From Conexibacter arvalis (GTDB lineage Bacteria; Actinomycetota; Thermoleophilia; Solirubrobacterales; Solirubrobacteraceae), in contig NZ_JACHNU010000004.1 in assembly GCF_014199525.1 (NCBI RefSeq), forward strand, positions 62,001-126,000: DNA of 64,000 bases. The letters run 5' to 3'. This document shows positions 9,048 through 61,293 of this stretch, piece after piece. Both the position numbers and the translations under genes were made by a program. Positions within the stretch are counted from its first letter, which is position 1. Every line of letters starts with the position of its first letter. The notes under the pieces are model-generated. The model searched no databases. It had not been told where the DNA came from and saw only the letters and a list, made by a program, of their open reading frames with translations.

Positions 9048-9052
9048 GCAGC

Positions 9053-10531: not shown

Positions 10532-10854
10532 CGGGCGGGGAGCCAACCCGGCGCTGTGTCGGCTGCGGCCGCACGGCGCCGAGACGCTCCCTGCAGCGCT
10601 ACGTCGTCCGCGACGGAGCGCTCGTCGTCGATCCCGCCGGCCGGCTGTCCGGCCGCGGGGCCTACACCCACCGCGCGCCCGACTGCTACGAGCTGGCGCG
10701 CACGCGCGGAGGCTTCAACCGCGCCTTCCGCCGGGCCGTGAGAGCGCCGGCCGCGCCACCGGCATGGGCCGCGCCAGACGCGCCCCCGCCGAGCCCGCGG
10801 CGACAGGCCGCACAGCTCGATTCTTCAGAGAACGTACACTTGGATACTGCATGA
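10531..10854 (+). CDS. ylxR: YlxR family (DUF448) RNA-binding protein, non-canonical start codon
   Basis: About 107 residues with the YlxR signature RRCVGCGRTAPRRSLQRYVV near the N-terminus and GRGAYTHRAPDCYELARTRGGFNRAFRRAV in the middle. The frame is open only after a stop at 10489, and no ATG, GTG, TTG or CTG gives a full-length product. Translation must begin at a rare codon: ACG at 10531, or ATA at 10528 overlapping the nusA stop. GGAGGA at 10513-10518 is a suitable ribosome binding site for either. The TGA overlaps the infB ATG (ATGA). The nusA-ylxR-infB position is conserved, which supports a real gene. Confidence 0.85.
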   Translation, partial: TGGEPTRRCVGCGRTAPRRSLQRYVVRDGALVVDPAGRLSGRGAYTHRAPDCYELARTRGGFNRAFRRAVRAPAAPPAWAAPDAPPPSPRRQAAQLDSSENVHLDTA

Positions 10855-13271: not shown

Positions 13272-13585
13272 TGACAGGCGGCTTCGTCGCCGTGCTCGTG
13301 GTCGACGTCCACTTCCCGGAGGCGGGGAGCTTGAAGGGCAAGCGCAAGGAGCTGTCGTCGCTCAAGACGCAGCTCCGCCAGCGCCTCCATTGCGCGGTCT
13401 CCGAGACCGCGCACCAGGATCTGTGGCAGCGAGCCGAGCTGACCGTCGCGCTGACGGGCGGCTCGCTGCCGGCGCTGGAGTCGGCCGCCGACGGCGTCGA
13501 GCGGTGGCTGGAGGAGCGCCTGCCGCAGGGGGTCAGCGTCGAGCGTCACATCCGCTCGGTGGGTGACCTGCGCGGCGGTGAGTGA
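13271..13585 (+). CDS. DUF503 family protein (YlxP-like)
   Basis: 104 residues. It begins with the typical GFVAVLVVDVHFPEAGSLKGKRKELSSLKTQLRQR and continues HCAVSETAHQDLWQRAELTVAL, the DUF503 pattern. Members are small ferredoxin-like proteins, often between infB and rbfA as here, with a presumed but unproven link to ribosome function. The ATG overlaps the infB stop (TGATG), so translation is likely coupled. Confidence 0.9.
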   Translation: MTGGFVAVLVVDVHFPEAGSLKGKRKELSSLKTQLRQRLHCAVSETAHQDLWQRAELTVALTGGSLPALESAADGVERWLEERLPQGVSVERHIRSVGDLRGGE

Positions 13586-13619
13586 ACAGTGAGAACGTGG
13601 ATGCGGAGCGACGGTTAGG

Positions 13620-13967
13620 ATGAGCGGCAGTCGGATTCGTCGTGTCGACGAGGCGGTGCGCGCCGTTCTCAGCGACGCCATCACGCAGGAACTGAAGGAC
13701 CCGCGCGTCGGGTTCGTGACCGTGACCGCCGTGAGAACAAGCTCAGACCTCCGCCACTGCCGCGTCTACGTGAGCATCCTTGGAGACGAGGAGACGCGCA
13801 GCGCCGGCCTGGAGGGGCTGCGCTCGGCCCAGGGCTTCCTGCAGCGCAGAGTCGCGCAGGCGGTGCGGATGAAGTACACGCCGGAGATCACCTTCGCCTA
13901 CGACGACTCGGTCGACAGAGGGATGCGGATCAACGAGCTGCTGAGAGAAGCCGGGGAGGGCGAGTGA
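13620..13967 (+). CDS. rbfA: Ribosome-binding factor A
   Basis: 115-residue KH-like protein that binds the 30S subunit and assists 16S rRNA maturation. Visible signature: RIRRVDEAVRAVLSDAI, ELKDPRVGFVTVTAVRTSSDLRHCRVYVSILG, and LRSAQGFLQRRVAQAVRMKYTPEITFAYDDSVDRGMRINELL. Its end overlaps the start of the next gene by 4 bp (GTGA). Arginine AGA codons are frequent. Confidence 0.95.
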   Translation: MSGSRIRRVDEAVRAVLSDAITQELKDPRVGFVTVTAVRTSSDLRHCRVYVSILGDEETRSAGLEGLRSAQGFLQRRVAQAVRMKYTPEITFAYDDSVDRGMRINELLREAGEGE

Positions 13968-46474: not shown

Positions 46475-47467
46475 ATGGGAACGACGGTTCGCACCGCTAC
46501 GGCGGCGCTGTGCGCGGCGCTCGGCGTCGCGGTGATCGCCGCGCCGGCCGACGCGGCAGGCAGACAGAAGCAGCAGCCCAGACGCCAGGCGGTCGCGATC
46601 GACTTCGCGGCCGTCGCCGGCAGCTCGCCGGTGAGCTGCGGCAAGCCGATCGCCGGGTTGGGGACGACCGCGGCGACGGCGCGGCTGACCGACCTGCGCT
46701 TCTTCGTCTCCGACGTCCGGCTGCTGCGCAGAGACGGCCGCGCCGTCGCGCTGAAACTCCGCGCCGACTCGCCCTATCGCGTCACGCGCGGGAAGGCAGC
46801 GGTGACGCTGATCGACCTCGAGAACGGGCGCGGCGGCTGCGCCGGCGGCACGCGTGGCACCAACGCGTCGGTGCGCGGGACGGTCCGGCGCGGCGACTAC
46901 GTCGGCGTGCGCTGGACAGTCGGCGTGCCGTTCGCGCTCAACCACACCGACGCGACGACCGCCCCGGCGCCGCTGAACAGCGCCGCGATGGCGTGGTCGT
47001 GGCAGGTCGGCCGCAAGTTCACCAAGATCGAGGTCAGCGATCCCGGCGACGGTGCCGCGCCGTGGGCGGCGAGAACGTTCTTCGTCCACCTCGGCAGCAC
47101 CGGCTGCGCCGGCAATCCCGCCACCGGCGCGACGGTCCGCTGCGCCGCCGCGAACCGCGCCGGCGTCACGCTGCGCCGGTTCGACCCGAAGCGACAGCGG
47201 ATCGCGGTCGACCTGAAGGCGCTGCTCGCCGGCGTCGACGTCACGCGCAACGGCGGCGGCGCGCCCGGCTGCATGGCGAACCCGAGCGACCCCGAGTGCG
47301 GCCCCGTCTTCAGAGCGTTCGGCCTCCGCCTCCCCGCCGCCGCCGGCGACGGAGCCGGCGGGCACGGCGACCACGCGGGCGGCGGCGACCCGGGCGCCGA
47401 CGGCGACGGCGGCCACGCGATGGCCGCGGCCGGGGGCCAGACGGTCTTCCGGGCGATCAAGCGATGA
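46475..47467 (+). CDS. mbnP: MbnP-family copper-binding protein
   Basis: 330 residues. Signal peptide 1-25 (ALCAALGVAVIAAPADA), then the four-Cys 'metallo-mystery pair' pattern: VSCGKPIAGLG, LTDLRFFVSDVRLL, FALNHTDATTAPAPLN, MAWSWQVGRKFTKIEV, FFVHLGSTGCAGNPATGATVRC, NRAGVTLRRFD, GCMANPSDPECGPVFRAFGL. In characterised MbnP a Trp is oxidised to kynurenine by MbnH and the site binds copper; the WSW here is a plausible target. An extra His/Gly/Asp-rich stretch (GGHGDHAGGG, GGHAMA) could also bind metal. Its stop overlaps mbnH. Confidence 0.88.
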   Translation: MGTTVRTATAALCAALGVAVIAAPADAAGRQKQQPRRQAVAIDFAAVAGSSPVSCGKPIAGLGTTAATARLTDLRFFVSDVRLLRRDGRAVALKLRADSPYRVTRGKAAVTLIDLENGRGGCAGGTRGTNASVRGTVRRGDYVGVRWTVGVPFALNHTDATTAPAPLNSAAMAWSWQVGRKFTKIEVSDPGDGAAPWAARTFFVHLGSTGCAGNPATGATVRCAAANRAGVTLRRFDPKRQRIAVDLKALLAGVDVTRNGGGAPGCMANPSDPECGPVFRAFGLRLPAAAGDGAGGHGDHAGGGDPGADGDGGHAMAAAGGQTVFRAIKR

Positions 47468-48678
47468 GCCGAGCGCGGGACCGCGGCAGGGACCGCCGTG
47501 CGGCGGTCCCGCGCCGTCTTGCGGTGCGCGCGCTCGCGCTCGCAGCCGTCCTCGCCGGCAGCGCGCTGCTGCACGGGCTGGCGTCGGCAGGCGCCGACAA
47601 ACCGGTGCGCCGAGCAGCGTGGAGCTGGCAACTGCCGGACGGCTTCCCGCAGCCGCGTGTCCCGAAGGCCAACCAAATGAGCAGAGAGAAGGTCGCGGTC
47701 GGCCGGCGGCTGTTCTACGACGCCCGCCTGTCGGGCAATGGGACGCAGTCGTGCGCGAGCTGCCACCGGCCGGAGCTGGCGTTCACCGACGGGAGGGCGC
47801 AGGCCGTCGGGTCGACCGGCGAGGTCCATCCGCGCAACGCGCAATCGCTCGTCAACGTCGCCTACAACGCGACGCTGACGTGGGCGAACCCGGCGCTCGT
47901 GACGCTGGAGCGACAGATGGAGGTGCCGCTGTTCGGCACCGACCCGGTCGAGATGGGGGTCACCGACGCGAACAGAGACCGCGTCCTGCGGCGCATCAGA
48001 CGCGACCGCTGGTACGCGAGACGCCTCCCGCGCGCCTTCCCGGGCGCGCGCAGGGCGATCTCGTGGGCGACGGTGATCCGCTCGATCGCCGCCTTCCAGC
48101 GCAGCATCGTCTCCGCCGGATCCCGCTACGACCGCCACCTCGCCGGCAGAGCGCGGCTCAACGCCTCCGAGCGGCGCGGCATGAACCTGTTCATGGGCGA
48201 GCAGGCCGAGTGCCACCACTGCCACGGCACGTTCATCTTCAGCGACCAGGCGACCTTCGTCGGCGCCTCCGGCGAGCCGCCGCTGTTCCACAACACCGGG
48301 CTCTACAACCTCGGCGGAACGGGCGCCTTCCCCGAGCCCAACCGCGGCGTGTTCGAGCTGACCGGGAGAATGGAGGACATGGGCGCTTTCCGCGCGCCGT
48401 CGCTGCGCAACGTGGCGAAGACCGCGCCGTACATGCACGACGGCTCGATCGCGACGCTCGAGGAGGCGGTCGACCACTACGCCGCGGGGGGTCGCGTGAT
48501 CGCCGACGGGCCGCACGCCGGCGACGGCCGCGCGAACCCGTACAAGGACCCGCTGATCGCAGCGATCAGGTTGAGCCGCCGCGACCGCGACGACCTCGTC
48601 GCCTTCCTGCGGACGCTGAACGGCCCCGACCTGTCGCGCGACCCGCGCTTCTCGGATCCGTTCAGGAGGGGGCGGTAG
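47464..48678 (+). CDS. mbnH: MbnH-family di-heme peroxidase
   Basis: 404 residues. An N-terminal Arg-rich segment and hydrophobic stretch (LAVRALALAAVLAGSALLHGLASA) export it. Two c-type heme sites: CASCH in LSGNGTQSCASCHRPELAFTDGRA and CHHCH in EQAECHHCHGTFIFSD. HPRNAQSLVNVAYNATLTWANP and FRAPSLRNVAKTAPYMHDGSIATLEEAVDHYAAGG are family hallmarks. MbnH is MauG-like and oxidises a Trp of its partner MbnP. ATGA overlap with mbnP shows coupled expression. Confidence 0.92.
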   Translation: MSRARDRGRDRRAAVPRRLAVRALALAAVLAGSALLHGLASAGADKPVRRAAWSWQLPDGFPQPRVPKANQMSREKVAVGRRLFYDARLSGNGTQSCASCHRPELAFTDGRAQAVGSTGEVHPRNAQSLVNVAYNATLTWANPALVTLERQMEVPLFGTDPVEMGVTDANRDRVLRRIRRDRWYARRLPRAFPGARRAISWATVIRSIAAFQRSIVSAGSRYDRHLAGRARLNASERRGMNLFMGEQAECHHCHGTFIFSDQATFVGASGEPPLFHNTGLYNLGGTGAFPEPNRGVFELTGRMEDMGAFRAPSLRNVAKTAPYMHDGSIATLEEAVDHYAAGGRVIADGPHAGDGRANPYKDPLIAAIRLSRRDRDDLVAFLRTLNGPDLSRDPRFSDPFRRGR

Positions 48679-48712: not shown

Positions 48713-49021
48713 TCACGGCCCGCCGTCTCGCTCGACGTAGACGAGGCGCCCGTCGGAGAGGCGGTAGACCTCGCCGACCGCTCTGCCGCGGCCGCTGGCC
48801 GGCGGCGCCGACGCCGGGGAGGGGAGGTCTCGCTGCCGCTCGTGCCCGGTCTGCGGCCTGCCGGTCGCGGCGCTTCTCTGGTCGGCGGTGAGGCCGAGAC
48901 CGGCGATCAGGAAGGCGACGGCGAGCACGATGCCGACGTCGAAGAGGTTGACGAGGCCGTCGAGCGGGTCGCCGGCTGCGTCGTCGAGGTTGCCGTGGCG
49001 GCCGAGCCCGATGCGGCTCAC
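48713..49021 (-). CDS. DUF2149 membrane protein (possible ExbD-like partner)
   Basis: 102 residues. NLDDAAGDPLDGLVNLFDVGIVLAVAFLIAGLGL contains the DUF2149 signature and a single membrane helix (about 28-45); the remainder is polar and ends in YRLSDGRLVYVERDGG. Single helix plus outside domain is the ExbD/TolR topology, but homology is not established. GTG start overlaps the ExbB-like gene (GTGA). Last gene of the leftward cobalamin-riboswitch operon. Confidence 0.85.
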   Translation of the reverse strand: MSRIGLGRHGNLDDAAGDPLDGLVNLFDVGIVLAVAFLIAGLGLTADQRSAATGRPQTGHERQRDLPSPASAPPASGRGRAVGEVYRLSDGRLVYVERDGGP

Positions 49022-49644
49022 CCGGTCACCGCCGCGGCCGCCCGCTCGAGTGCGGTCAGGTCTTCCGTGTACATGCGGGTCCGCGTCAGCGTCAGCGCGA
49101 AGGCGACGGTGCCAACGAGCAGGCCGATCACCGTTGCGGCGAAGGCGATTCGCAGGTCGGAGGCGAGCTGGGAGATGTCGCCGTCGGAGAGCGCCTGAAG
49201 GCCCGGTGCGAGCGGGATCAGCGTCCCCATCAGGCCGATCGCCGGCCCCGCGCGGACGAGCATGCGCGTGCGGTCGAGGCGCTTCTGCGCCGCCAGCTCG
49301 AAGTCGGCGAGCGCGTGCTCGGCCGACTCCGGCCGTCTCGCCGAGACGGCGGCGGCGAGCTGGCGGACCGCGGCCGCCGCGAACGCCGTCGGCGCGACGA
49401 GCGCGAGCTGGGGCGCCTCGCCGGGGGCCGCGACGGCGCGCGCCGCGAGCTGGCGCAGCGGCTGCCTGCGCATGCGGGCGCGACGCTGCCAGGACTCGGT
49501 CGCGAAGCGGCCGCACTCCAGCGCGGATGCGAGCAGCGCGACGATCGCCAGCAGCAGCACCGGGATCGCGAGCACCGACACCAGCTGCGCGAGCGCGTCG
49601 CCGATGCGGTCGTGGAGCGGGATCGCGAGGGGAGGAGGGCTCAT
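49018..49644 (-). CDS. MotA/TolQ/ExbB proton channel family protein
   Basis: 208 residues. First membrane helix about 18-43 (LVSVLAIPVLLLAIVALLASALECG), a cytoplasmic helical stretch, then the family core RMLVRAGPAIGLMGTLIPLAPGLQALSDGDISQLASDLRIAFAATVIGLLVGTVAFALTLTR with two more helices. Such channels use the proton gradient to move an attached partner. It is coupled by ATGA to the toroid gene upstream and by GTGA to DUF2149 downstream, all behind a cobalamin riboswitch. No TonB protein is visible. Confidence 0.9.
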   Translation of the reverse strand: MSPPPLAIPLHDRIGDALAQLVSVLAIPVLLLAIVALLASALECGRFATESWQRRARMRRQPLRQLAARAVAAPGEAPQLALVAPTAFAAAAVRQLAAAVSARRPESAEHALADFELAAQKRLDRTRMLVRAGPAIGLMGTLIPLAPGLQALSDGDISQLASDLRIAFAATVIGLLVGTVAFALTLTRTRMYTEDLTALERAAAAVTG

Positions 49645-51506
49645 CGGGTCCTCTCGGGGTCGAGGTCGGGGTCGGGGTCGGGGCGACGGCGCTCGAGCAG
49701 GCCGCCGAGGCCGCCGGCCAGCAGCAGCGAGCCGGCGATCGCGACGGCGGGCCACGGGCCGGCGTCGCCGCCGGTCGACGCGCCGCGCAGGCCGAAGGCG
49801 GCGCCGACGTCGGTCGTGCGGTCGTCGCCGCCGACGCCGCCGACGACGACGCCGCTGATCTGCTCGTCGTCTGCGCCGGAGCCGGAAGCGCCGCCGATCA
49901 CGGTGTCGCCGCCCGCGCCGAGAACACGCCGGTCGGCGGCGGCGTCGCCGTCGCGGGCACGCCGGTCGGCGGCGTCGGCGACTGCGCCCTGATCGGCACC
50001 GCCGCTCGCGGCCGGGCCGGACGCGGCATCGGCCGGCTCCGCGTCCGGCCCGGAGACAGCCCGATCGGAGGCGGCCGGCGGCGCCCCGCCGTCGTCGTCG
50101 GTCCCATCGCCGGCCGCGGACCGCAGCGGATCTTCGTCCTGCTCCCGCTGCGTCCGCTCTCGGCGCCGCTCGGGCCGACCGCGCTCGGCCTCGACGCTCG
50201 TGACGCCGCCGACCGTGCTGCCCTTGCTGCCCTGGCGCGGGCGGCTGAAGAGCGGCGCGCCCTCGCCGCCGCCGCCGATCAGCACGCCGCCGCCGTCGCC
50301 GCCCGAGCCGCCGCTGCCTCCGCCGGCGCCGTCGCCGCCCTCGCCGCGGGTCGGCCGGTTGCGCGGGTCGGGAACGCTGCCGGCGAACGGCACCCGCGCG
50401 AGCGGGAGATAGCGGCCCGAGTAGGCGGGCGCCGTGTAGGCGGTCATCCACACCTCGTTGGAGGAGTCCGCGGCGGTCCACGCGATCGAGCCGTCGGGGC
50501 GCTGGAGGGAGGCGAGGAAGTCGAGCATGCTCGCGCCGCCGCGACGCCAACGCCCCGGATGCTTCCCGACCGCCCACAGCCCCTGCGCGACCCACGCCGT
50601 CGACGCCGAGTTGCCGATCGTCTTGCCCTCCAGGTCCGGGAAGCCGCCGCCCGGCAGCTGCACGCGCCGCAGCCAGGCGAGCGCACGGTCGCGCGCCCGC
50701 GCCGCCGCACGATCCTCCCGCGCGCCGCCGAGCCGGCCCGCGGCGCGCAGCGCCTGCAGCGCGGCGCCGGTCATGTCGGTGCTGCTCGCCATCCCCGCGG
50801 CGACGGCCGGCCAGCCGCCGTCTTCGGCCTGGACCGAGAGGATCCAGCGGGCCGCCCTGGCGATCGCGCGATCGACGACCGGCCCGCGCGCCCCCGCCAG
50901 CGACAGCACCGCCCAGATCGTCGTGTTGACCCCGGGCGCCGGCTTCGCCGGGTCGTGCGTGAAGGAGCCGTCGGGCCGCTGCCGATCGAGGATCCGCCGG
51001 ACGAGGTCGACGCCGCCGAAGCTGCGCGGATCGGCGCCGCCGGCCGCGTTGACGACCAGCAGCACGCGCTCGTAGTCGGTCGTGACGCGCAGGTCCCTCA
51101 CCGCGCCGCGGATGCACTGGAGCACCGACCGGTGGCCGTCGGGCCGGAATTGCTCGCGCGGGTTCACGCCCGCCGCGGCGAGCGCGATCGCCGCCCACGA
51201 GCTCGCGTAGGCCGGATCCGGCGGGCCGCCCCTTCTCATCGGGAAGCAGCCGTCCCTGCGCTGGACCTGCTGGAGGTAGCGGACCATCCGGTCGAGCGAG
51301 CCGTCGTCCGCGGACGGCGCCGCCGCGCTCGACAGCGTCAGGCCGAGCGCCGCAGCCGAGAGCAGCGTGAGGCCGGCCGCGACAGCGGCCAGCGAGACGC
51401 GCCGGCGAATGCGCCGGCGCGGGGAGCCGCGGCGCCACGAGCCGACGCCGCGCCGGCCGGGCCGCACGCGCCGGCTCTGCCGGCGATCAGGGCCGGACGC
51501 CGGCAC
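49641..51506 (-). CDS. Membrane-tethered alpha/alpha-toroid protein (prenyltransferase/squalene-cyclase-like repeats), putative corrinoid binder
   Basis: 621 residues. Arg-rich start and signal/anchor helix (about 38-62), then an alpha/alpha-toroid (about 68-345) with recurring QxxDG turns: QRRDGCFPM, QRPDGSF, QAEDGGW, QLPGGGF, QRPDGSI. A long Gly/Asp/Ala-rich linker (about 360-575) leads to a C-terminal membrane helix (WPAVAIAGSLLLAGGLGGLL) and short charged tail. The toroid fold is shared by terpene cyclases and the alpha domain of transcobalamin; no cyclase DxDD acid motif is seen. Riboswitch control favours B12 binding. GTG start overlaps the upstream DUF4430 gene by 20 bp. Confidence 0.82.
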   Translation of the reverse strand: MPASGPDRRQSRRVRPGRRGVGSWRRGSPRRRIRRRVSLAAVAAGLTLLSAAALGLTLSSAAAPSADDGSLDRMVRYLQQVQRRDGCFPMRRGGPPDPAYASSWAAIALAAAGVNPREQFRPDGHRSVLQCIRGAVRDLRVTTDYERVLLVVNAAGGADPRSFGGVDLVRRILDRQRPDGSFTHDPAKPAPGVNTTIWAVLSLAGARGPVVDRAIARAARWILSVQAEDGGWPAVAAGMASSTDMTGAALQALRAAGRLGGAREDRAAARARDRALAWLRRVQLPGGGFPDLEGKTIGNSASTAWVAQGLWAVGKHPGRWRRGGASMLDFLASLQRPDGSIAWTAADSSNEVWMTAYTAPAYSGRYLPLARVPFAGSVPDPRNRPTRGEGGDGAGGGSGGSGGDGGGVLIGGGGEGAPLFSRPRQGSKGSTVGGVTSVEAERGRPERRRERTQREQDEDPLRSAAGDGTDDDGGAPPAASDRAVSGPDAEPADAASGPAASGGADQGAVADAADRRARDGDAAADRRVLGAGGDTVIGGASGSGADDEQISGVVVGGVGGDDRTTDVGAAFGLRGASTGGDAGPWPAVAIAGSLLLAGGLGGLLERRRPDPDPDLDPERTR

Positions 51507-53052
51507 CGTCGACGCTCACCGAGCCCCGCAGGACGCGCAGCTCGACGACGCTCGCCCGCTTGCGCGCCGGACCGGCTACCGTGCGGGTCCGACCGGCGCG
51601 CGCGGCGCCGAGCGAGACGACGCGGCTGCGGCCGCCGGCGCTCACGCGCACCCGCGCAGCCGGCCCGCCGCGCAGCAGCACGATCGGCCTCCCGGCGGCG
51701 AGCCGGACCCGCAGCACCGCCCCGCGGCCGCCGCGCGAGACCGTCCGGCGCCAGGCGCCGGCGTCGGCGGCCTTCCGCCACGGCCCGCTCAGCCGCAGCG
51801 CCTTCGCGCGGTCGTCGAGCGGGACGAGCAACTGCCCGAGGCCGGCGGTGCCGGCCCGGCCGACCCTGTCCGTGACGGTGAAGCGGAGCGCGTAGGCGCG
51901 TCCAGCGCGCAGCCGCAGTGTCGCGGAGGTCGCACTCGTGCCGGAGGCGGCGCGAGAGAAGCGGGCACGCGGCACGCCGAGCGGCTTCGCGTCGATCCGC
52001 CACGAGGCGACGCCGACGCCCGCTCTGCGAACCGTCCAGCGGACGCGCACGCTGCCGTCGCGCGTCCCGCCCGCGACGACGCGCGGTCTCGACAGCTCGA
52101 CCCGCGGCCGGTCGGAGGTCCCGCCGCCGCCGGCGCCGTTGCCACCAGCGCCGCCGTCGCCGCCGCTTCCACCGCCGCCGTCGACGAAGCGGGCCGGGAT
52201 GACCGGCTGGCGGCTCGGCGGGACACCCTCGCAACCGGCGCCGGGCGCCGCCTCGACGCAGACGTCGACGCTGTTGGAGGCGATCGCAGCGGGATGACCA
52301 GATTCCGGCACGACGCCGCCGGCCCGCGCCTTCAGCCGCTGCCAGCCGGGCACGGCGAAGGTGACGGCCGCTCGGCCGTCGGCGCCGCTCGTCGCCGGGA
52401 CGGCGACATCCGCCGGCGCGGTCTGCCCGTCGGCGTCGACCGCAGCGACGACCGCGCCGGCGTACGGCGGGCCCGTCGTCTGGTTGACCTCGGTGCTGGA
52501 GTCGGTCGACGTGACGGTGACGGTGAGCGGCTGGCCGACGATCGCCGTCGCGATCCCGTCCGCGCCGTTCGGTCCGTCGAGCCACAGGAACGGGCGCGAG
52601 CTGAAGGCGTCGTTGACCCACAGCACCTCGTCGCCCGCTCTCACCTGGAACTGGCAGCCGCCGACCGGGGTGAAGACGCGGTTGACGAGGATTCCCCACC
52701 AATGCGTGGCGCCGTCGCTCTCCGCGCCGAAGCGGGTGATGAAGTAGTCGTCGAAGCCGGGCGTCCAGTTGCCGTCGAAGTCGCTCCGGAGGGTCTCCAT
52801 CGCGTCGACCGTCGCGGCCGTCGCGGTCGGGCCGGGCGCCGGGTTGGCGCCGAGGTTGGTGCCGTCGCAGCGGCGCGCGACGGTGTCGGAGCTGGCCTTC
52901 AGCGAGCGGCCGTCGGTGCGGATCACGCGGTCGAACAGCGTCCGCTGCACGCCCTCGACGCGGACGTGCACGTCTGCCGGCGCGGGCCGCGCGGCGGCGA
53001 GCAGGAGGAGGATGATCGGCGCGACGACCCGCGCCCCATGGCGAAAACGCAT
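51487..53052 (-). CDS. Secreted DUF4430-domain protein, first gene of leftward B12-riboswitch operon
   Basis: 521 residues. Signal peptide 1-26 (VVAPIILLLLAAARPAPA), then a DUF4430 domain (VHVRVEGVQRTLFDRVIRTDG ... HWWGILVNRVFTPVGGCQFQVRAGDEVLWV, to about 155). DUF4430 corresponds to the C-terminal beta domain of transcobalamin. Ig-like/beta modules follow (GQPLTVTVTSTDSS, DGRAAVTFAVPGWQRLKARAGG), a Gly-rich linker near 285-305 and beta-rich C-terminal modules with no membrane helix. ATG after GAAAGGGG. Cobalamin is predicted to switch the operon off. Confidence 0.87.
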   Translation of the reverse strand: MRFRHGARVVAPIILLLLAAARPAPADVHVRVEGVQRTLFDRVIRTDGRSLKASSDTVARRCDGTNLGANPAPGPTATAATVDAMETLRSDFDGNWTPGFDDYFITRFGAESDGATHWWGILVNRVFTPVGGCQFQVRAGDEVLWVNDAFSSRPFLWLDGPNGADGIATAIVGQPLTVTVTSTDSSTEVNQTTGPPYAGAVVAAVDADGQTAPADVAVPATSGADGRAAVTFAVPGWQRLKARAGGVVPESGHPAAIASNSVDVCVEAAPGAGCEGVPPSRQPVIPARFVDGGGGSGGDGGAGGNGAGGGGTSDRPRVELSRPRVVAGGTRDGSVRVRWTVRRAGVGVASWRIDAKPLGVPRARFSRAASGTSATSATLRLRAGRAYALRFTVTDRVGRAGTAGLGQLLVPLDDRAKALRLSGPWRKAADAGAWRRTVSRGGRGAVLRVRLAAGRPIVLLRGGPAARVRVSAGGRSRVVSLGAARAGRTRTVAGPARKRASVVELRVLRGSVSVDGAGVRP

Positions 53053-53084
53053 CTCGGCCCCTTTCCACGAGGGCTCTCGACTGG

Positions 53085-53238
53085 TCGGATCGGCGGCAGG
53101 TCTCCTGGCTTCCGAGCGGTTCCGTCGCGCCTTCCCAGGCTCGTCGCCCAGTGGCTGCGTCGTCGCGTGCGACGGTCGTTCCTCGGTCACAGTGGCGGGC
53201 CCGCGCCGGTCTCTCACCGGCTTCCCGGACCGCCCATC
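53085..53238 (-). promoter_or_regulatory. Cobalamin riboswitch (leftward operon)
   Basis: Read on the minus strand: GGGAAGCCGGTGAGAGACC, then GCCCGCCACTGTGACC (core at 53189-53200), GCCACTGGGC, and the B12 box AGCCAGGAGACCTGCC (53095-53110). These are the conserved blocks of the cobalamin (B12-element) riboswitch in the right order. The DUF4430 start codon follows about 35 bases later. No terminator is seen, so translational control of the start site is likelier. Confidence 0.96.
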
Positions 53239-53335
53239 CCGAATATGTGGCGCGGCAGCGTAGCGCAGCGGCAGGCGGCGCGTGCCCGCTCGCGGCGCGT
53301 CTGACGCGACCGGCGGCATCTGCTTGACGGGCGCG

Positions 53336-53540
53336 CTAGCGTTCTCTTCGCTCACGAAAGCGGGGAACTCCGGTGAGAATCCGGGGCTGTCGCGCAGCGG
53401 TGTGGGTGACGAACGGATCGCAGTGCCACTGAGCCGGACGACGGCTCGGGAAGGAGATCCGGGAGGTCGAGCCCGAGCCCGAAGACCCGGTGAGCGAAAA
53501 CCGCCTCGCGATCAAGGCGGCTGCTCTCACCGACCCGGTT
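53336..53540 (+). promoter_or_regulatory. Cobalamin riboswitch (rightward operon)
   Basis: Blocks in order: GGGGAACTCCGGTGAGAATCC (53362-53382), GCTGTCGCGCAGCGGTGTG, GTGCCACTGAGCC, GGGAAGGAGATCC and the B12 box AGCCCGAAGACCCGG (53476-53490). CGGTGAG (53488-53494) can pair with CTCACCG (53526-53532) around a CCGCCT/AGGCGG hairpin (53501-53520). It is more divergent than the leftward copy. TTGACG at 53324-53329 is a candidate -35. No terminator; AGGAG and ATG follow within 50 bases. Confidence 0.92.
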
Positions 53541-53585
53541 TGCCGGATCCGTGCGCGTCGCCGCCCCTGAAACAGGAGCACCGAC

Positions 53586-55739
53586 ATGCATCCAAGGGCT
53601 CTGCGCCCCTTCGTCGCGGCGTGCCTCGCGCTCGCCGCCCTGACGCTCCCGCTCTTCGCCGGGAGCGCCCCGCCGGCCCGCGCCGCGACCGACGCGGAGG
53701 TCCGCGACGCGCTCGACCGCGCGATCGACTGGTACGCCCAGCGCCAGCTTCCCGACGGCTCGTTCGGGACCAACAGCGGCCTCGACCCGGCGTGGGGCCT
53801 GCTCGGACTCGCCGGCGCCGGCGCCCATGCCGCCGACCTGCGTCCGGGCGGCGACGCCGCCGCCCCGACCGCACAGGAGGGCCAGCTGAAGATCTGGACC
53901 GTCAACGAGCCGAGCGACTGGTGGGCCTTCTCGCATGAGCAGGCGACCGACTGGCAGCGGGCGATCCTGCAGGCGCATGCGATCGGCCTCCAGCCGACGC
54001 GGCTGTCGGCCGGGCGCAACCTGCTGGCCGGCATGGCGTCGTTCTATCGCGACGGCTGGTTCACGTCGCAGAGTTCGCTCTTCAACCACACCCTCTTCGG
54101 CCTGCTCGCGCTGTCGGCGCTTCCGGTCCCCGACACGCTGCTGGCGCGCACCGCGGCGATCGTCGCGAGCAACCAGCACGACGACGGCGGCTACACCAGC
54201 TACCCCGCGACCGACCCCGCCACGAGAGCGCGACCGAGCGACATCGACTCGACCGGCGCCGCGATCGGCGCGCTCTGCGCCGCCGGGCGCACCGCGGACG
54301 ACCCGGCGGTCGCCGGCGGGATCGCCTTCCTGCGCTCCAGACAGGCCGCCAACGGCGCGATCGGCAACGTCAACTCGACCAGCTGGGCGCTCGACGGCCT
54401 CGGCGAATGCGGCCTGCGGCGCGGTGCGCCCGACTGGACGGCCGACGACGAGTCGACGATCGACTGGCTGCTCTCCCAGCAGGCGACGAGCGGCCCGCAC
54501 GCCGGCGCCTGGCTGGTCAACGGCAACCCGAACGAGTACATGACCTCCGACGCGATGCGCGCGATCGGCGCCGCCGCCTTCGTCGTCGACCCGCCGGCCC
54601 GCGCCAACCCGGCCGACCCGGTCGTGCGGCAGCCGCCGGCCGTCGCGGACGGCACCGTCGTGCCGGTCGCGCTGGTCGTCGACGCCGGTCGCGGCACGCC
54701 GCGGCTGTGCGCGACCGACGCGCCGGTCGGAGCGACCGTCGCGGCCGTCCTGGAGGCGGCGCGAAGCACCTCGCGGCCGGCCGGCTGCGTGAACGCGCTG
54801 ACCGTCGGCGACGACGGGATCGTCACGGCGATCGACCACGCGACGGGCGGCGGCTGGCTCGCCTCGCTGCACGGCGGCGCCGAGCAGCCGGCCGGGCCGC
54901 AGGCGGTCGGCTTCGGGGAGATCGTCTCGCTGCGGCTCGTCGATCCCGACCCGGTCTACTTCGAAGTCGACCGGCTCGACTTCGGAGTGCAGCCGATCGG
55001 CCTGCTCTCCGGCGCCCGGCGGGTGTCGCTGCGCAACGCTTCGGCGGAGCCCGTGAGCATCCGCGCGGTGCGGCTCGCGGGCGAGGACGGCGGCGACTTC
55101 GCGCTCGTCGGCGACGACTGCCGCGGCGAGACGCTCGCCCCTGACGAGAGCTGCTCGGTCGGCGTGCGCTACGCGCCGTCGCGCGCCGGCTTCGGCAGCG
55201 CGCTGCTGACCGTCGCCGTCACCGGCGCGGACGCGTCGCCAGCGATCGCGCTCGTGGGCGAGGGAACGTCGCTTCCGGCCGGCCCGCCCGGCTGGCCGGG
55301 GCCGGCCGGCGCCGAGGGCCCGGCCGGCGCGGCCGGGGAACCCGGCGCCGCGGGGTCGCCCGGCGCGCCCGGCGCGGCCGGCGCACAGGGCCCGCGCGGC
55401 GCCAGGGGGAGACAGGGCGCCCGCGGGCCCGCCGGCCGCTCCGTCCGCGTCAGCTGCCGGCTCGCCGGCGCCAAGCGGCTGCGCTGCCGCGCGGTCGCGA
55501 CCGGCACGGCGAAGAGATCGCGGCGCGTCGCGGCCCGCTCCTCGACGCGGCTGCGCAGAGCCGGGCGCGTCTGGGCGCGCGGGCCGCTGCGCGACGTCCG
55601 CGCGACGCGCACCCTGCCCGCCGGCAGCTACCGGCTCGAGGTCAAGCACCGCGGCCGATGGCTGCGCGGCGAGCTGCGCCTCGTGCGCCGATCGCCCGCC
55701 GCCGCCCGTCCGGCCGCGACGATCGGGGTGCTCCGATGA
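53586..55739 (+). CDS. Secreted toroid-DUF4430 protein with transcobalamin-like architecture
   Basis: 717 residues. Signal peptide 1-34; alpha/alpha toroid about 37-335 ([68 protein letters not shown]); DUF4430-like beta domain about 357-457 ([56 protein letters not shown]); a choice-of-anchor-D/ASH-like domain about 458-560; collagen-like Gly-x-y repeats about 565-615; an Arg-rich beta C-terminus. Toroid plus beta domain equals the layout of transcobalamin and intrinsic factor. B12 binding is predicted, not shown. First gene behind a cobalamin riboswitch. Confidence 0.87.
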
Positions 55740-57829
55740 GCGTCCGCACGATCGAAACGCAGAAGCAGGCGAGCGGCGCCGGCCGGTCGCCCCGCGGCCG
55801 GGCGGGCCGCCGCCTCGTCGGGTTGGCGGCGCTGGCCGCCGTCGCCGTGCCGCTCGCGGGTGGGGCGGGCGCCGCGGCCGCCGCGGCCGCCCCGCCCGGG
55901 CTCGTCGAGTCGTGGGGCCGCAACGGCGACGGCCAGCTCGGCAACGGGAGGGGAGCTGACGCGAACCGCCCCGAGCTGGTGAGAGGCACGGGGTCGGTGA
56001 CCGCGCTCGCGGTCGGCGACTCGCACACGCTCGCCGTCCACGGCGACGGCACCGTCAGCGCCTGGGGCGGGAACGCCTCCGGCCAGCTCGGCGACGGCAC
56101 GACGACCGGGCGCGCGGCCCCGGCGCCCGTCGCCGGCGTGACCGGCGCGACGGCCGTCGCGTCGAGCACGTCGACCAGCTTCGCGCTGCGCGGCGACGGG
56201 ACGATCTGGAGCTGGGGCGCGAGCGACGGCGGCCTGCTCGGCCGCGGCGGCGACACGAGCCCGGCGCCGTCCGCCGTCTCGACGAGCGGCGCGACCGCGG
56301 TCGCCGCCGGCTTCGACTTCGCGCTCGCGCTGCGCGACGACGGGACCGTCATCGCGTGGGGCGACAACACCTATGGCCAGCTCGGCGTCGACCCCGCCGC
56401 GACGGCGAACAGCGCCGTGCCGGCCGCCGTGCCCGGGATCTCCGGCGCGGTCGCCGTCGCCGCAGCAGGGTGGACGTCCTACGCGCTGCTCGCCGACGGC
56501 ACCGTTCGGGCGTGGGGCTACGGCGGCTACGGCGAGCTCGGCGACGGGCTCGTCCACGACGGCGCCGACGCGCCCGAGCAGGTCCACCAGCCGGTGGCCG
56601 TGCGGTCCCCCGGCGGCGCGGGCGCGCTGACCGGGGTCAGACAGCTCGCGGCCGGGTCGACCCATGCGCTCGCGCTGCACGGAGACGGATCGGTCGTCGC
56701 GTGGGGCCTCAGCGGCGGTGACGGCGTCACCCGCTGGGCGCCGGTGGCGATCCCCGGCCTGCCGGCGGTCGCCGAGGTCGGCGCGACCGGCGCCGAGTTC
56801 GCCCGCGGCGCCGACGGCTCGCTGTGGGCGTGGGGGAGCAACTGGCGCGGGCTGCTCGGCCTCGGCCCCGACGCCGGCCCCGGCAGCGACATGCCGCGGC
56901 AGGTGCCCGGCATCGCCGCCACCGGCCTCGCAGGCGGCGTCGCGGGCGGCCACATGGCGGTCGTCCGCGCCGCGCCCGCTCCGTTCGCGACGGCGTCGCT
57001 GAGCTTCGGCGAGCAGCCGCTCGGCGCGCTCGGCGCGGCGCAGCGGGTGACGTTCACCAACCCCCGCGGCCCGCTGACGGTCAAGCGGATCGTCGCGACC
57101 GGCGCCGACCGCGACGACTTCCTCGCCGTCGACGACGGCTGCAGCGGCGAGACGCTCACGGCGACCGAGACGTGCGCCGTCGCCGTCCGCTTCGCGCCAT
57201 CGGCTGCCGGCGAGCGCACCGCGACGCTGACGGTCCTCCCGACCGGCGGCGGCGAGTCGCTGGAGCTGCCGCTGAGCGGGACCGGCGGCGCGCTGCCGCA
57301 GGGCCCGCAGGGGGCGACCGGTCCGAGCGGCCCGGAGGGCGGGCCCGGCCCGCAGGGGCCCGCCGGCGCGACCGGCCCGTCCGGTCCGACCGGCCCCGCC
57401 GGCGCGGCCGGGCCGAAGGGCGCGACGGGGCCGCGCGGCGCGCGCGGGCCGCGGGGTCGTGACGCGCGCGTGACCTGCAAGCTCGCCTCCGCGCGCCGCG
57501 CGCGCTGCACGGTGACGTACGTGTCGGGCAGGCCCGGCGCGACGCGGGTCCGCGCGAAGGCGTCGACGAGCGCGCGGCTCGTCCGCGGCGGCCGCACGAT
57601 CGCGCGCGGCACGCTCGGACGGCTGATGGCCGTGAGGAGCGCCGGCACGACGGAGCGACGGCGCGCGAGCCGCGCGGCGGACGCGACCGGCCGCGCCAGC
57701 GCCGACGTGACCGCGGGACGCCGGGCGAAGCGCGCGGCGAAGGCGACCGCCGCGATCGGTCGCGGACGCGCCGTGCTCGTCGTCGGCGGCGGTCGCGAGC
57801 GGCTGCGGATCGTCGTGCGCGTCCGCTGA
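55736..57829 (+). CDS. Secreted RCC1 beta-propeller protein with collagen-like stalk
   Basis: 697 residues. Signal region about 25-55 ([24 protein letters not shown]). RCC1-type blades repeat about seven times ([90 protein letters not shown]). A choice-of-anchor-D domain (about 415-515), Gly-x-y repeats (about 520-578) and a basic C-terminus repeat the ending of the upstream protein. The propeller may bind protein or ligand; its role in B12 capture is unknown. ATGA overlap with the upstream gene. Confidence 0.87.
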
Positions 57830-57863
57830 CGAGCAAGCCTTGCCAACCAACGAAGGGGGACGA

Positions 57864-58676
57864 ATGTCCACGAGAAGGACCGGTGCGCACGGGATGCGCG
57901 CCCTGCTGGCCGCCGCGCTCGCCGCCGCGGCATGCGCGGCGGCCCCGGCCGCGGTGCACGCGGCCGACGTGACGGTGCGGGTCGAGGGCAGAAGCGGCAC
58001 GCTGCTCGCGCAGACGACCGTCACGATCGGCGACGGGACGAGAACGGCGAGCACGTGGAACGGCGTCGGCGCGATGCCGCACACCTGCGCCGACGACACG
58101 GTCTACCAGGCGACCGAGCTGGCGCTGAGAGGGAACTGGGACCGCTCGACCTACGTCGAGACGATCGCGGGCGAGTCGCACAGCTGGTCGCCGAACGAGG
58201 AGTACTGGATCCTCTACCACGAGAACGACTACGCCGACTGGGGCGCTTGCGAGCTGCACCTCGAAGACGGCGACACGGTCCTCTGGCAGGCCGGCAAGTC
58301 CGGCCCGTCGCCGGACTTCATACCCGACTCGATCCCGATCTTCCTCGAGCGGGTCTCGCCGGCGAGCGGCCCCGTCAGACTCGGCAGAACGCTGACGGTG
58401 AAGCTGACCGCCTACCGGCCGACCGACATCTTCGGCACGCCCGACCCGAACGACCCGGGCCACTGGATCATCCCGCCGAGCCCGCCGACCAACCCGGCCG
58501 GCTACACCGTCTCCGTCGGCGGCACGACCGCCGTCACCGACGCCAACGGCGAGGCGACGCTGAGAATGCCGTCGTCGACCGGCGTCTACGACGTCCAGGC
58601 GAGCATGCCGGGCAGCTCCTCCAACTGGAGCCGCTCGATCCCGCTCGCCGTCTGCGTCAGCAACACCTCCTGCTGA
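57864..58676 (+). CDS. Secreted small DUF4430 protein
   Basis: 270 residues. Signal peptide about 1-33 (ALLAAALAAAACAAAPAAVHA), then DUF4430 beginning DVTVRVEGRSGTLLAQTTVTIGDG and ending YADWGACELHLEDGDTVLWQAG, then a bacterial Ig-like tail (TVSVGGTTAVTDANGEATLRMPSSTGVYDVQASM). It resembles the DUF4430 start of the leftward operon's first gene, so the two are probably paralogues. ATG 4 bp after AAGGGGGA. Last gene of the rightward riboswitch operon. Confidence 0.88.
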   Translation: MSTRRTGAHGMRALLAAALAAAACAAAPAAVHAADVTVRVEGRSGTLLAQTTVTIGDGTRTASTWNGVGAMPHTCADDTVYQATELALRGNWDRSTYVETIAGESHSWSPNEEYWILYHENDYADWGACELHLEDGDTVLWQAGKSGPSPDFIPDSIPIFLERVSPASGPVRLGRTLTVKLTAYRPTDIFGTPDPNDPGHWIIPPSPPTNPAGYTVSVGGTTAVTDANGEATLRMPSSTGVYDVQASMPGSSSNWSRSIPLAVCVSNTSC

Positions 58677-58818: not shown

Positions 58819-61293
58819 CTACCTGGTCCGCGCGGCGCGCTTCACACGCACGGTCGCGGTGCGGCGCGTCGTGCCGCCGCTCGATCTCGCGGTCACGGCG
58901 ACGCGGTAGCGGCCGGCCGGCAGTCTGCGCGGAAGGCGGACCGTCACGGTCCCGGCACGGCGGGCGGTCGCGGTGAGCGTCCGCGTCGGCCGTCTGGCGC
59001 ACCGTCTGCCGCTGCAGCGCCGGAGCGCGACGCGCAGCCGCGCACGGCCGCTCACGCGCACGCGCAGCTGGCGGCCCTGGAGCCGCAGCGCGCGCACCCG
59101 CGTCGCCGACGGCTTCGGCTTGCCGGCGGGCTGTCTCGGGACGGCGCCGGGGCCGGGCGCCTCCGTCGTCGGCGGCGTGCCGCCGGGCCCGGGCTGCTGC
59201 GGACCGGGCTGCTGCGGACCCGGCTGCTCAGGCCCGGGCTGCTGCGGGCCGGGCTGCTCGGGCCCGGGCCCCGGCTCCTCCGGCTCGGGCGCGACGTGGG
59301 TGCGGGTCGTCAGCCACTGGTCGCGCGGCAGCGGGCGATCGACGATGCGCGTCTCGCCGATGCAGCCGGACCAGCCGTTGACCGTTCTTCTCGCCGTCAT
59401 GCCGGAGCCGATCCGCCACGGGAGGTCGGCCGTCGAGAGGCCGACGGTGTCGACGGCGTTGCGCAGCACCGGCGCGCCGTCGACGTACATCGTGGTCGTG
59501 CGCGCGATCGGGTCGTTGACCGTCGCGACGTGCATCCATCTGTCGGCCATGATCTCGCCCGACCAGTTCGGGCGCTCGGCGATCGGGTCGGCGCCGGCGG
59601 CGTTCCACTGCACCTCGCGCAGGTTCGAGATCGCCAGCGTGAAGACCGGCTCGTCCCAGCTCCAGCCGGGGTAGACCATCCCCGGCACGTCGCGGCGGCT
59701 GCCCTCGCGCGTCAGCGCGCCCATCCACGCGTTGTCGGTCGAGCTCCAGTCGGCGTCGAGCTTGATGAACGTCTCGATCGTGTAGCCGTGTCTGAACCAC
59801 GCGCGGTTGACCGCCGCGTCGGCGGCGGTGTTCATGTAGCTGATCCGTCTGCCGACGTTGGCGAAGCAGGCGCTGGCGCCGTTGGAGGAGAGGGCGTGGT
59901 GGTCGCGCGTGATCGTCAGGTCGCCGAGCTCGGCGCCGACGACGTCCTCGGCGTCGAGCGGGGCGCGCCGCATGTCGGCGCCGCCCTCGACGTCCTTCGC
60001 GCCGACCGCGCCCGGCTGCAGCGCGCCCGCGGCGGAGGCGTCGAAGCGCCAGTGGGCGAGCGTGCCGTCGACCTTCGGGTAGTCGCGCTCGTCGTGGGGG
60101 AGGCTCGGCTGTCTGACCTCCGGCTCGTCGTAGCCGTCGAGCACGCTGGCCTTCGCCGCGTCGAGCAGCGAGCCGTGGGAGGGCGCCGGCGCCGCGACCG
60201 GGTCGGCGAAGCGGGAGAAGCGCTCGTCCCAGTCGATCGCGAGTCTGAGGTTCTCGTTCGGCCCCGTCTTGACCGCCTGGTCGTACTCGGGGATCAGCGT
60301 GTCGGTCGGCTTCAGTCGCACCCACGGCGAGACGACGGCCGTGTCGATGCGGTCGTTGGTGAAGTCGAACTCCATCAGCCCGAGGTAGGCGTTGCCGCCC
60401 ATGTAGGCCATCTGGTAGTCCCAGACGATCTGGTCGACGCTGTGGCCGAAGTCGTTGGTCTTGCGCAGGTGCGCCGAACCGTGGTTGTGGCCGTTGATCG
60501 TCAGGAAGATCTGGTCGTTGTCTCTGATCAGCTCGTTCCAGAGGCGCAGCCCCGGACCGGTCTCGACGGCCGTCACCGCGTCGCTGTCGATCGCGAGGAT
60601 GTTGTGGGTCGTGAGGATCACCGGCAGTCTCGGATGCGCGGCGATCACGTCGCGGGCCCACTGGATCGCCCTGTCGGAGGCCTCCCACGACAGCGCCAGC
60701 GCGAGGAACGTGCGGCCCTCGGCGGTGAAGGTGTGCCACTCGTGGAAGCCGCTCTCGTCGCGGCCGCCGAAGCTCGCCTGCTCGGCGGCGCGCGAGGCGG
60801 GGAAGTATCTGAGGAAGTTCTCGTTCGCGAGGTTGCGCGAGTCGTCGCGGCAGCCGACGCCCGAGCAGCCGTTGACGACGTCGTGGTTGCCGGCCAGGAT
60901 CGAGTACGGCAGACCGGCCTGCTCGAGCGTTCTCATCGCCTCGTCGGCGACCTCCCACTCCTGGGTCTGCCCGTGGCGGTCGACGACGTCGCCGAGATGG
61001 GTGACGAACGGGATCCGCAGCTCGTCCCGGTTGTCGGCGAGCCATCTCGTCTGGACGGCGTACGGCTCGGTGCCGTAGCGGTCCATGAACAGCTCGCCCG
61101 AGCCGGCGGTCGAGTAGCGGGAATAGAACTGGGTGTCGGGCAGCACGCCCAGCAGGAAGCTCGACCGGTCGCCTTCGGCGGCGGCGGCGTCGCCGACGAG
61201 CGGCGGCGAGAGGAGGGGCGTCAGCGCGCACGCGGCGGCCGCGGTCAGCAGCGCGAACCGCCCGCGCACGCGACGGGGAAGTGGTGATCTCAT
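58819..61293 (-). CDS. Secreted calcineurin-like metallophosphoesterase with LamG domain
   Basis: 824 residues. Signal peptide about 1-38. Phosphoesterase domain 45-310 with metal motifs LPDTQFYS, HLGDVVDRHG, LAGNHDVV, TTHN and NGHNHGS. A LamG/concanavalin-like domain (about 410-640) includes FIKLDADWSSTDNAWMG, MHVATVNDP and TTTMYVDGAPVL. Then a Pro-rich linker with GPQQPGPEQP repeats and a basic beta C-terminus. Likely hydrolyses an extracellular phosphoester; the substrate is unknown. Not linked to the cobalamin riboswitches. Confidence 0.9.
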   Translation of the reverse strand: MRSPLPRRVRGRFALLTAAAACALTPLLSPPLVGDAAAAEGDRSSFLLGVLPDTQFYSRYSTAGSGELFMDRYGTEPYAVQTRWLADNRDELRIPFVTHLGDVVDRHGQTQEWEVADEAMRTLEQAGLPYSILAGNHDVVNGCSGVGCRDDSRNLANENFLRYFPASRAAEQASFGGRDESGFHEWHTFTAEGRTFLALALSWEASDRAIQWARDVIAAHPRLPVILTTHNILAIDSDAVTAVETGPGLRLWNELIRDNDQIFLTINGHNHGSAHLRKTNDFGHSVDQIVWDYQMAYMGGNAYLGLMEFDFTNDRIDTAVVSPWVRLKPTDTLIPEYDQAVKTGPNENLRLAIDWDERFSRFADPVAAPAPSHGSLLDAAKASVLDGYDEPEVRQPSLPHDERDYPKVDGTLAHWRFDASAAGALQPGAVGAKDVEGGADMRRAPLDAEDVVGAELGDLTITRDHHALSSNGASACFANVGRRISYMNTAADAAVNRAWFRHGYTIETFIKLDADWSSTDNAWMGALTREGSRRDVPGMVYPGWSWDEPVFTLAISNLREVQWNAAGADPIAERPNWSGEIMADRWMHVATVNDPIARTTTMYVDGAPVLRNAVDTVGLSTADLPWRIGSGMTARRTVNGWSGCIGETRIVDRPLPRDQWLTTRTHVAPEPEEPGPGPEQPGPQQPGPEQPGPQQPGPQQPGPGGTPPTTEAPGPGAVPRQPAGKPKPSATRVRALRLQGRQLRVRVSGRARLRVALRRCSGRRCARRPTRTLTATARRAGTVTVRLPRRLPAGRYRVAVTARSSGGTTRRTATVRVKRAARTR
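59187..59274 (-). repeat. Short in-frame Pro-rich repeats
   Basis: Imperfect 15-18 bp units encode repeated EQPGP/QQPGP in the linker between the LamG and C-terminal domains of the phosphoesterase. Confidence 0.7.

Follow-up and report, generated by a model that had tools for sequence, protein, structure and literature searches.

What two cobalamin riboswitches placed back to back on opposite strands control, and to what end, is the question raised by the stretch of Conexibacter arvalis DNA analyzed here (64 kb, positions 62,001 to 126,000 of contig NZ_JACHNU010000004.1; hereafter, the window), in which seven genes lie behind the two aptamers. It is considered probable that these genes specify a split, transcobalamin-like system for corrinoid capture, repressed by vitamin B12, which in this one-membrane actinobacterium would feed an energy-coupling factor (ECF) importer and would be served by a proton-driven unit composed of an ExbB-family protein and a DUF2149 protein. 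The proposal builds on what was established by computation, namely, the riboswitches, the gene content, one transcobalamin-like predicted fold, and linkage to ECF genes and riboswitches; the ECF partner, the likeness of DUF2149 to ExbD, and the kinship with HmuU/HmuV are additions to an earlier note on the same DNA. The features of the locus are as follows.

53317..53508, plus strand: cobalamin riboswitch aptamer, leader of the plus-strand operon (RF00174, 76.3 bits, E 5.1e-17, model positions 1-189)
53078..53249, minus strand: cobalamin riboswitch aptamer, leader of the minus-strand operon (RF00174, 74.8 bits, E 1.3e-16, model positions 1-189)
51487..53052, minus strand: DUF4430-type secreted protein, 521 amino acids (N-terminal signal-like segment by hydropathy; PF14478 15.5 bits, sub-threshold)
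49641..51467, minus strand: membrane-anchored alpha/alpha toroid protein (PF00432 35.7 bits, PF13249 34.3 bits; N- and C-terminal hydrophobic segments)
49018..49644, minus strand: ExbB-family proton-channel protein, 208 amino acids (PF01618 38.9 bits, cut-off 22.9)
48713..49021, minus strand: DUF2149 protein, 102 amino acids (PF09919 40.6 bits; one membrane segment with an invariant Asp)
53586..55739, plus strand: secreted toroid fusion, 717 amino acids (signal-like segment, Pfam, NCBIfam, predicted fold)
55736..57829, plus strand: secreted RCC1-type beta-propeller, 697 amino acids (PF25390 263 bits, PF00415 140.4 bits)
57894..58676, plus strand: secreted DUF4430 protein, 260 amino acids (PF14478 27.6 bits, cut-off 23.8)

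The earlier note had described two divergent B12 elements separated by some 95 bp and followed by seven genes. Scanning of the 64-kb window with the RF00174 covariance model bore out both elements as full-length aptamers, each exceeding the gathering score of 31.5, although the spacing between them is 67 nucleotides; at Rfam gathering thresholds, nothing besides these two matches was returned from the 64 kb, and the one tRNA of the window (ARAGORN) lies far from the locus. Gene calls likewise recovered the seven genes, of which the four on the minus strand follow the riboswitch in the order DUF4430-type, toroid, ExbB, and DUF2149, with 4-base overlaps between successive members of the last three, while the three on the plus strand are ordered toroid fusion, RCC1 propeller, and DUF4430 protein. 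The start of the minus-strand toroid gene is uncertain (51467 or 51506), and a longer open reading frame (ORF) from a TTG at 57840 is the alternative for the 57894 gene.

This arrangement is not ascribed to chance because it is seen again, riboswitches included, in Conexibacter sp. CPCC 206217 (locus L016), where seven genes lie behind three riboswitches, and in Candidatus Solirubrobacter pratensis (L017), where riboswitches 2 nucleotides apart lie between a toroid-collagen gene and a DUF4430-toroid-ExbB-DUF2149 series. Both genera are members of the Solirubrobacterales, and the window ExbB protein shares 83% and 64% identity with its respective relatives in these two genomes and 55% with that of a Patulibacter metagenome-assembled genome. 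Among 121 genomes of the order, host included, at least nine back-to-back riboswitch pairs were counted in at least seven genomes. Another such pair, accompanied by a toroid-DUF4430 relative, was observed in the same genus (L104, 6403-10609), where the references for the ECF S-toroid and for DUF4430 are both matched by one 658-amino-acid protein. In L089 (8348-10913), from this genus as well, a cobalamin riboswitch lies before a 770-amino-acid gene which, judged from its start, is a candidate metE, and two DUF4430-toroid operons occupy the same stretch.

With respect to the encoded proteins, the ExbB, DUF2149, and RCC1 assignments of the earlier note all lie above their Pfam cut-offs, each of its two toroid proteins matches at least one toroid family above cut-off, and the signal peptides or anchors which it had ascribed to the five large proteins correspond to N-terminal hydrophobic segments in all five (hydropathy), together with a C-terminal segment in the minus-strand toroid that is retained in all five relatives tested. 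The 53586 protein is organized as a toroid (residues ~34-335) and a DUF4430-like beta domain (~350-455), followed by choice-of-anchor D and a collagen-like repeat, and the RCC1 protein has a comparable tail comprising a collagen-like repeat (PF01391, 29.9 bits) and choice-of-anchor D (NF012200, 49.6 bits). The claim of three DUF4430 genes fared less uniformly, as the PF14478 cut-off is passed by the 57894 gene only, which has a relative in L016 (68% identity over 236 amino acids). The sub-threshold 51487 gene is joined to it by hhalign (98.8% between the two families, and 77% to the DUF4430 family of the ECF loci described below, with reversed and RCC1 controls below 1%) and has blastp relatives in L016, L017, L089, L091, L092, L096, and L101; the third gene, 53586, returned no PF14478 match to E 1 and is linked to the family through its predicted fold.

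That fold was predicted with AlphaFold2 for residues 1-458 from a six-sequence alignment, and the resulting model (predicted local distance difference test [pLDDT], 81.2; predicted template modeling score, 0.81) is largely helical to residue 340 and largely strand beyond. When the model was compared with the PDB by Foldseek, ranks 1 to 14 were all occupied by haptocorrin, transcobalamin, or intrinsic factor, with haptocorrin first (E 9e-9 to 1.6e-6, 13-16% identity), and the alignments comprise 460-496 columns (gaps counted) for the 458-residue model, thus spanning both domains. The 53586 protein is, therefore, predicted to carry a toroid and then a beta domain in one secreted chain, as in the transcobalamin family. 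Sequence and profile searches of the PDB returned no transcobalamin among the matches listed (the best 60 of 75 in one toroid search), giving instead cyclases, prenyltransferases, complement, and collagen, and a PDB profile search with the ECF-locus DUF4430 yielded nothing useful. PF01122, which we take to be the transcobalamin/intrinsic factor/haptocorrin family, was not among the Pfam families with E of 1 or below in any of the nine proteins scanned.

A candidate route for corrinoid across the membrane was found elsewhere in the host genome (5.2 Mb, 99% complete). The genome contains six RF00174 matches, four of them outside the window:

L019: riboswitch, then Peripla_BP_2, methyltransferase, FecCD, and ABC_tran genes, a BtuFCD-type transporter
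L020: riboswitch, DUF4430 protein (473 amino acids), DUF4430 protein (329 amino acids), CbiQ-like T component, double ATPase, and a 583-amino-acid S-toroid fusion
L021: riboswitch, one gene, then CbiB, CobQ, and CobN
L022: riboswitch, then CbtB, CbtA, and a sulfite-reductase-like gene in a cob-type cluster

Each of the four riboswitch operons outside the window therefore bears genes of B12 or cobalt type. On its sequence matches, L020 is assigned as an ECF transporter with T, S, and two ATPase domains: the T component matches CbiQ (PF02361, 46.9 bits, cut-off 25), the ATPase matches ABC_tran in two stretches (156.2 bits) and cbiO (TIGR01166, 216.4 bits, above 211.8) while remaining below the cut-off of 315 for ECF_ATPase_1 (253.9), and the S-component matches vitamin-type ECF S families at sub-threshold scores (25.6 versus 26.7 and 23.4 versus 30.7). 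The L020 fusion protein consists of an N-terminal S-component-like part and a toroid, and it shares 38.6% identity over 337 amino acids with the minus-strand toroid of the window.

The host encodes the corrin-synthesis proteins CbiC, CbiB, CobQ, and CobN and has five matches to B12-binding domains. Neither the TonB plug domain (PF07715) nor Omp85 (PF01103) was matched in the genome, the controls being 14 genomes, including that of E. coli, in which the plug was found in 3 and Omp85 in 7; a one-membrane cell is the simplest reading because of this double absence. The proposal of extracellular corrinoid capture in a Gram-positive-type cell, as advanced in the earlier note, is thus partly supported, in that it agrees with the riboswitches, the predicted fold, the lack of an Omp85 or TonB plug match, the B12 synthesis and uptake genes of the other riboswitch operons, and the ECF linkage, although only one of its three DUF4430 calls exceeds the cut-off.

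The association with ECF genes extends across the order. Among the 121 genomes, DUF4430 was detected in 96, RF00174 in 108, and DUF2149 in 41, and a same-strand riboswitch lies 339-3647 nucleotides upstream of the best DUF4430 match in at least 84 of the 96 genomes, a lower bound as contigs are short. Downstream of DUF4430 on the same strand, tblastn (one DUF4430 locus per genome, 96 loci) located a CbiQ-like T component in 83 loci, an ATPase in 76, and an S-component in 72 (74 if two toroid-only matches are included), with all three present in 72. Outside the order, DUF4430 was found in 44 genomes, and the T, ATPase, and S components were together in 8 of 13 loci examined. Matches to the S part and to the toroid occur together in 62 of the 72 loci having an S part, a single reading frame being confirmed by gene calls in L020, L101, L105, and L108 only; no relative of the S-toroid fusion was found in a plasmid search. 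In L091 and L092, which are among these 62, S and toroid are by gene calls separate genes of one operon. Fusion of the toroid to S in many ECF loci, and its presence elsewhere as a membrane-anchored neighbor encoded on its own, suggest, on sequence grounds, that it acts at the ECF S-component.

The ECF form is widespread in the order and the ExbB-DUF2149 form is rarer, and the two forms meet in one genus. Here, L091 and L092 each carry a single operon encoding DUF4430, membrane toroid, second DUF4430, CbiQ-like T component, ATPase, S-component with no fused toroid, ExbB, and DUF2149. Two riboswitches stand back to back (their aptamer matches share 35 bases in L091), and the second is followed by a toroid-DUF4430 gene running in the opposite direction. 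A third locus of this genus, L094, reads DUF4430 (cut)-CbiQ-ATPase-S-ExbB-DUF2149. Twelve window-type DUF2149 loci (at least 55% identity) were examined, and toroid, DUF4430, or ECF partners adjoin seven, namely, those of the window, L016, L017, L089, L091, L092, and L094; L093 and L095 are cut at ExbB by contig ends, and the riboswitch search returned no match in these two or in L098 and L099. In one genus of the order, a toroid-like gene followed by ExbB and DUF2149 was observed in L252, L253, and L254, with a 450-amino-acid protein between in L252 and L254; these genomes have an ECF S-component without a fused toroid, and no riboswitch is among the matches listed for these stretches.

DUF2149 was present in all 8 genomes whose S-component lacks a fused toroid but in 21 of the 60 that have one (Fisher P 0.0006), which is a hint only of an association between the unfused S-component and genomic DUF2149, the 8 unfused cases being drawn from two genera. 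For this test, L091 and L092 were manually moved from the fused to the separate class, G368 was added after gene calls, contig-cut loci without a toroid match (L107, L146, L172, L198, and L221) were omitted, and L222 was retained although a contig end lies within 0.9 kb.

The nature of the DUF2149 protein bears directly on what the ExbB-family channel might do. A DUF2149 profile (17 sequences) was compared with 380 E. coli K-12 ORFs, taken from two stretches of 50 kb containing exbBD and tolQR, and it ranked ExbD first (E 0.0052) and TolR second (0.12), the next match being at 0.64; the ExbB profile ranked E. coli ExbB first (0.11) and TolQ second (0.20), followed by a match at 0.38, all of these scores being weak. 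Such a ranking would be expected of a shortened ExbD. The membrane Asp of DUF2149 (Asp28) is invariant in 17 of 17 aligned sequences and aligns with the membrane Asp of ExbD, a residue which takes part in proton passage. In direct comparison with ExbD alone, hhalign gave 18.7%; the ExbD family is absent from the Pfam list of the DUF2149 protein, and a PDB profile search with DUF2149 returned no ExbD and nothing useful. The hhalign comparison and the PDB search weigh neither for nor against the likeness, and DUF2149 is regarded as a possible ExbD-like partner of ExbB.

A comparable gene pair is known from heme acquisition. In the hmu heme operon, an ExbB homologue, HmuU, is followed by the DUF2149 protein HmuV (PMC10434189), which another account describes as unrelated to known families (PMC13227078). 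The presumed task of HmuU-HmuV is to energize the TonB-dependent receptor (PMC12583661). The locus resembles this system in having an ExbB homologue and then DUF2149 in a setting of tetrapyrrole acquisition; it differs in that the host genome lacks TonB-plug and Omp85 matches, the partners are toroid and DUF4430 proteins with an ECF importer in relatives, and no HmuS-type chelatase is present. The role of HmuU-HmuV as energizers of an outer-membrane receptor, as given in PMC12583661, is questioned by the occurrence of the pair in a genome without a TonB-plug or Omp85 match. Compared with the ExbB-ExbD-TonB energizer, an ExbB-family channel is present and a TonB-dependent receptor was not found in the host genome.

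The following sequence of events is envisaged. When B12 is scarce, both riboswitches of the window would permit expression, as would that of the separate riboswitch-controlled operon encoding the host ECF importer (L020); the response of both window operons to B12 is itself something we infer. The toroid and DUF4430 proteins may correspond to the two halves, alpha and beta, of a clamp of the transcobalamin type, joined as one chain in one protein and separate in others, and, together with the RCC1 propeller, with its collagen-like stalk like that of the toroid fusion, they would take hold of corrinoid at the surface of the cell. From the membrane-anchored toroid, the corrinoid would then pass to the S-component of the CbiQ-type ECF importer. 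ExbB and DUF2149, the latter in the role of ExbD, could form a proton-driven stator pair which powers capture or release at the cytoplasmic membrane rather than acting on an outer-membrane receptor, perhaps by opening the clamp. Corrinoid binding and hand-over, like the direction and use of the motor, belong to what we infer from the arrangement. That the motor specifically opens a transcobalamin-type clamp, thereby freeing tightly held corrinoid into the ECF importer of a one-membrane cell, is a tentative suggestion that we regard as rather doubtful. Animals solve the same release problem by lysosomal digestion of transcobalamin. Were the suggestion true, HmuU-HmuV of gut bacteria would be a sister motor, placed at the inner membrane and not acting on a TonB-dependent receptor.

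Several results weigh against this account. The likeness to transcobalamin anticipated by the earlier note stands in the 14 best PDB matches of the 53586 model, but rigid superposition on the transcobalamin group was poor, with a root mean square deviation (rmsd) of ~20 Å and TM scores of 0.33-0.46, so that the relative orientation of the 53586 toroid and beta domain is unsupported. The model obtained for the 57894 protein is poor (pLDDT, 47.5). From Foldseek rank 15 onward, the matches are terpene cyclases, some with a lower rmsd (6.1 Å), and for the toroid alone the best VIA-align match is squalene-hopene cyclase (Z 21.7, 268 residues, 3.3 Å), there being no transcobalamin among the 50 rows listed; these rows all cover the toroid only and thus provide no argument against the two-domain match. 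The 53586 beta domain has no hidden Markov model match to DUF4430, and hhalign against three DUF4430 families gave 2.9, 0.1, and 0.3%. With respect to linkage, 12 of the 96 order loci show no ECF match by the rule used, partly reflecting short contigs. The expected co-occurrence of DUF2149 with toroid, DUF4430, or ECF partners, borne out at the seven loci named above, fails in L099, which is uncut and has no such neighbor or riboswitch, and in L098, where the only neighbor is weakly toroid-like and without a riboswitch; in L018, a 3.4-kb contig, tRNA genes lie upstream of ExbB. Finally, the need for an additional importer is not obvious because the genome has B12-synthesis genes and a BtuFCD-type set.

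The most durable of the alternatives, though unlikely, is that the secreted proteins bind corrinoid for storage, for scavenging from rivals, or for handling at the surface (remodeling, or use as a hemophore-like public good), with ExbB-DUF2149 serving a chelatase or other tetrapyrrole-processing step. The association of the pair with the hmu heme operon (PMC10434189) would fit such a role, as would its proximity to CobN-like proteins: L026 has the order CobN-DUF2162-ExbB-DUF2149, L027 has the same order (both being low-GC phylum members), and, of the 4 plasmid records examined (10 matched; the fourth is unannotated), 3 have CobN next to ExbB-DUF2149, one of these three also carrying bzaF, a B12 lower-ligand gene annotated as 5-hydroxybenzimidazole synthase. 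Against this, no CobN-like gene is among the seven genes of the locus, and a complete ECF importer shares an operon with the module in L091 and L092 (in L094, in part). The CobN-like proteins of L026 and L027 are large (975.6 and 997.4 bits) with a long N-terminal extension, and the two loci resemble an hmu-like chelatase module outside Bacteroidota, the small genes of L027 having been placed by order and blastp only.

In L023 and L024, ExbB-DUF2149 lies behind a PKD-domain protein, with no riboswitch or toroid seen. The L023 pair is a second one in the host itself (L023 positions 7831-13786, on contig C7) and precedes a 1166-amino-acid protein that begins with a signal-like segment and matches no Pfam family; contig C7 is without a riboswitch match, and this ExbB-DUF2149 subtype recurs in relatives.

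That the ECF importer and the locus take up cobalt ions rather than corrinoids is highly improbable, even if the T component is CbiQ-like, in a family named for cobalt transport, and cobalt transporters are also known to be under cobalamin riboswitches (PMC3766115). The matches of the S-component, weak and below threshold, are to vitamin-type ECF S families, and its Pfam and NCBIfam lists do not include CbiM; CbtAB is already under another riboswitch, and, as a ligand for a large transcobalamin-like protein of two domains, a corrinoid is more plausible than a metal ion. Least credible of all is that the toroids, whose sequence and fold are closest to those of squalene-hopene cyclases, are secreted terpene-cyclase or prenyltransferase-type enzymes under incidental B12 control, given that no DXDD, the catalytic motif of class II terpene cyclases, occurs within residues 1-360 in three of the four toroids tested (both window toroids and L016; L017 has one, at residue 301), that a D-x-D-x-T segment resembling it by eye has Ser or Met in fourth position in all six sequences (in an alignment without cyclases), and that the toroid proteins bear signal or anchor segments, have relatives joined to an ECF S-component, and occur with recurrent cobalamin riboswitches.

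The preferred reading, of transcobalamin-like capture feeding an ECF importer, may be set beside known systems. The 53586 protein is, on its predicted fold, like animal transcobalamin, intrinsic factor, and haptocorrin in being secreted and in having a toroid and then a beta domain, and is unlike them in being bacterial, in its extra anchor-D and collagen-like parts, in the location of the two halves on separate genes elsewhere, and in its low identity to them, as given above. In ECF importers, the membrane S-component is described as the substrate-binding protein, and ECF-CbrT is a vitamin B12 importer of Lactobacillus delbrueckii (PMC5997447); the present system shares with it, by description and not by sequence, ECF ATPases, a T component, a small membrane S-component, and a link to B12, and departs from it in having a dedicated CbiQ-like T component, a double ATPase, DUF4430 proteins outside the cell, and a toroid that is either fused to S or next to it, with ExbB-DUF2149 added in some operons. 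The BtuG and BtuH proteins of Bacteroides grasp B12 at the surface before import (PMC6143338 and PMC8941943); also by description, surface capture proteins, riboswitch-bearing loci, and the inclusion of a beta-propeller are common to both, whereas Bacteroides has an outer membrane and BtuB, and the propeller of the locus is of the RCC1 type. Against the SCO2321 family membrane protein (NF053823, cut-off 300), the L020 S-toroid scored 125.6 bits and the minus-strand toroid 59.5, both below cut-off.

An ECF importer is thus tied to extracellular proteins, one with a predicted build like that of an animal B12 carrier, and some relatives add a likely proton-driven stator pair, a combination which suggests an undescribed route of B12 uptake. 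Among the titles and abstract openings listed from a literature with few subscription journals, none describes bacterial transcobalamin-like proteins with ECF genes. The system could represent a bacterial parallel to, or a source of, the transcobalamin architecture, and it offers a testable role for DUF4430 and DUF2149.

Two neighbors of the locus remain to be described. Convergent with the plus-strand operon and ~140 bases from it, a minus-strand gene (58819-61269) encodes a metallophosphatase-like protein with a laminin-G-like domain, for which no link to the locus was seen by Pfam. Directly beside the DUF2149 gene, a plus-strand pair (46475-48678) consists of a gene for an MbnP-family copper-binding protein (TIGR04052, 271.9 bits, cut-off 140) followed by one for a protein with two CxxCH heme motifs (47677-48678, plus strand), an arrangement that resembles an MbnP-MbnH pair.

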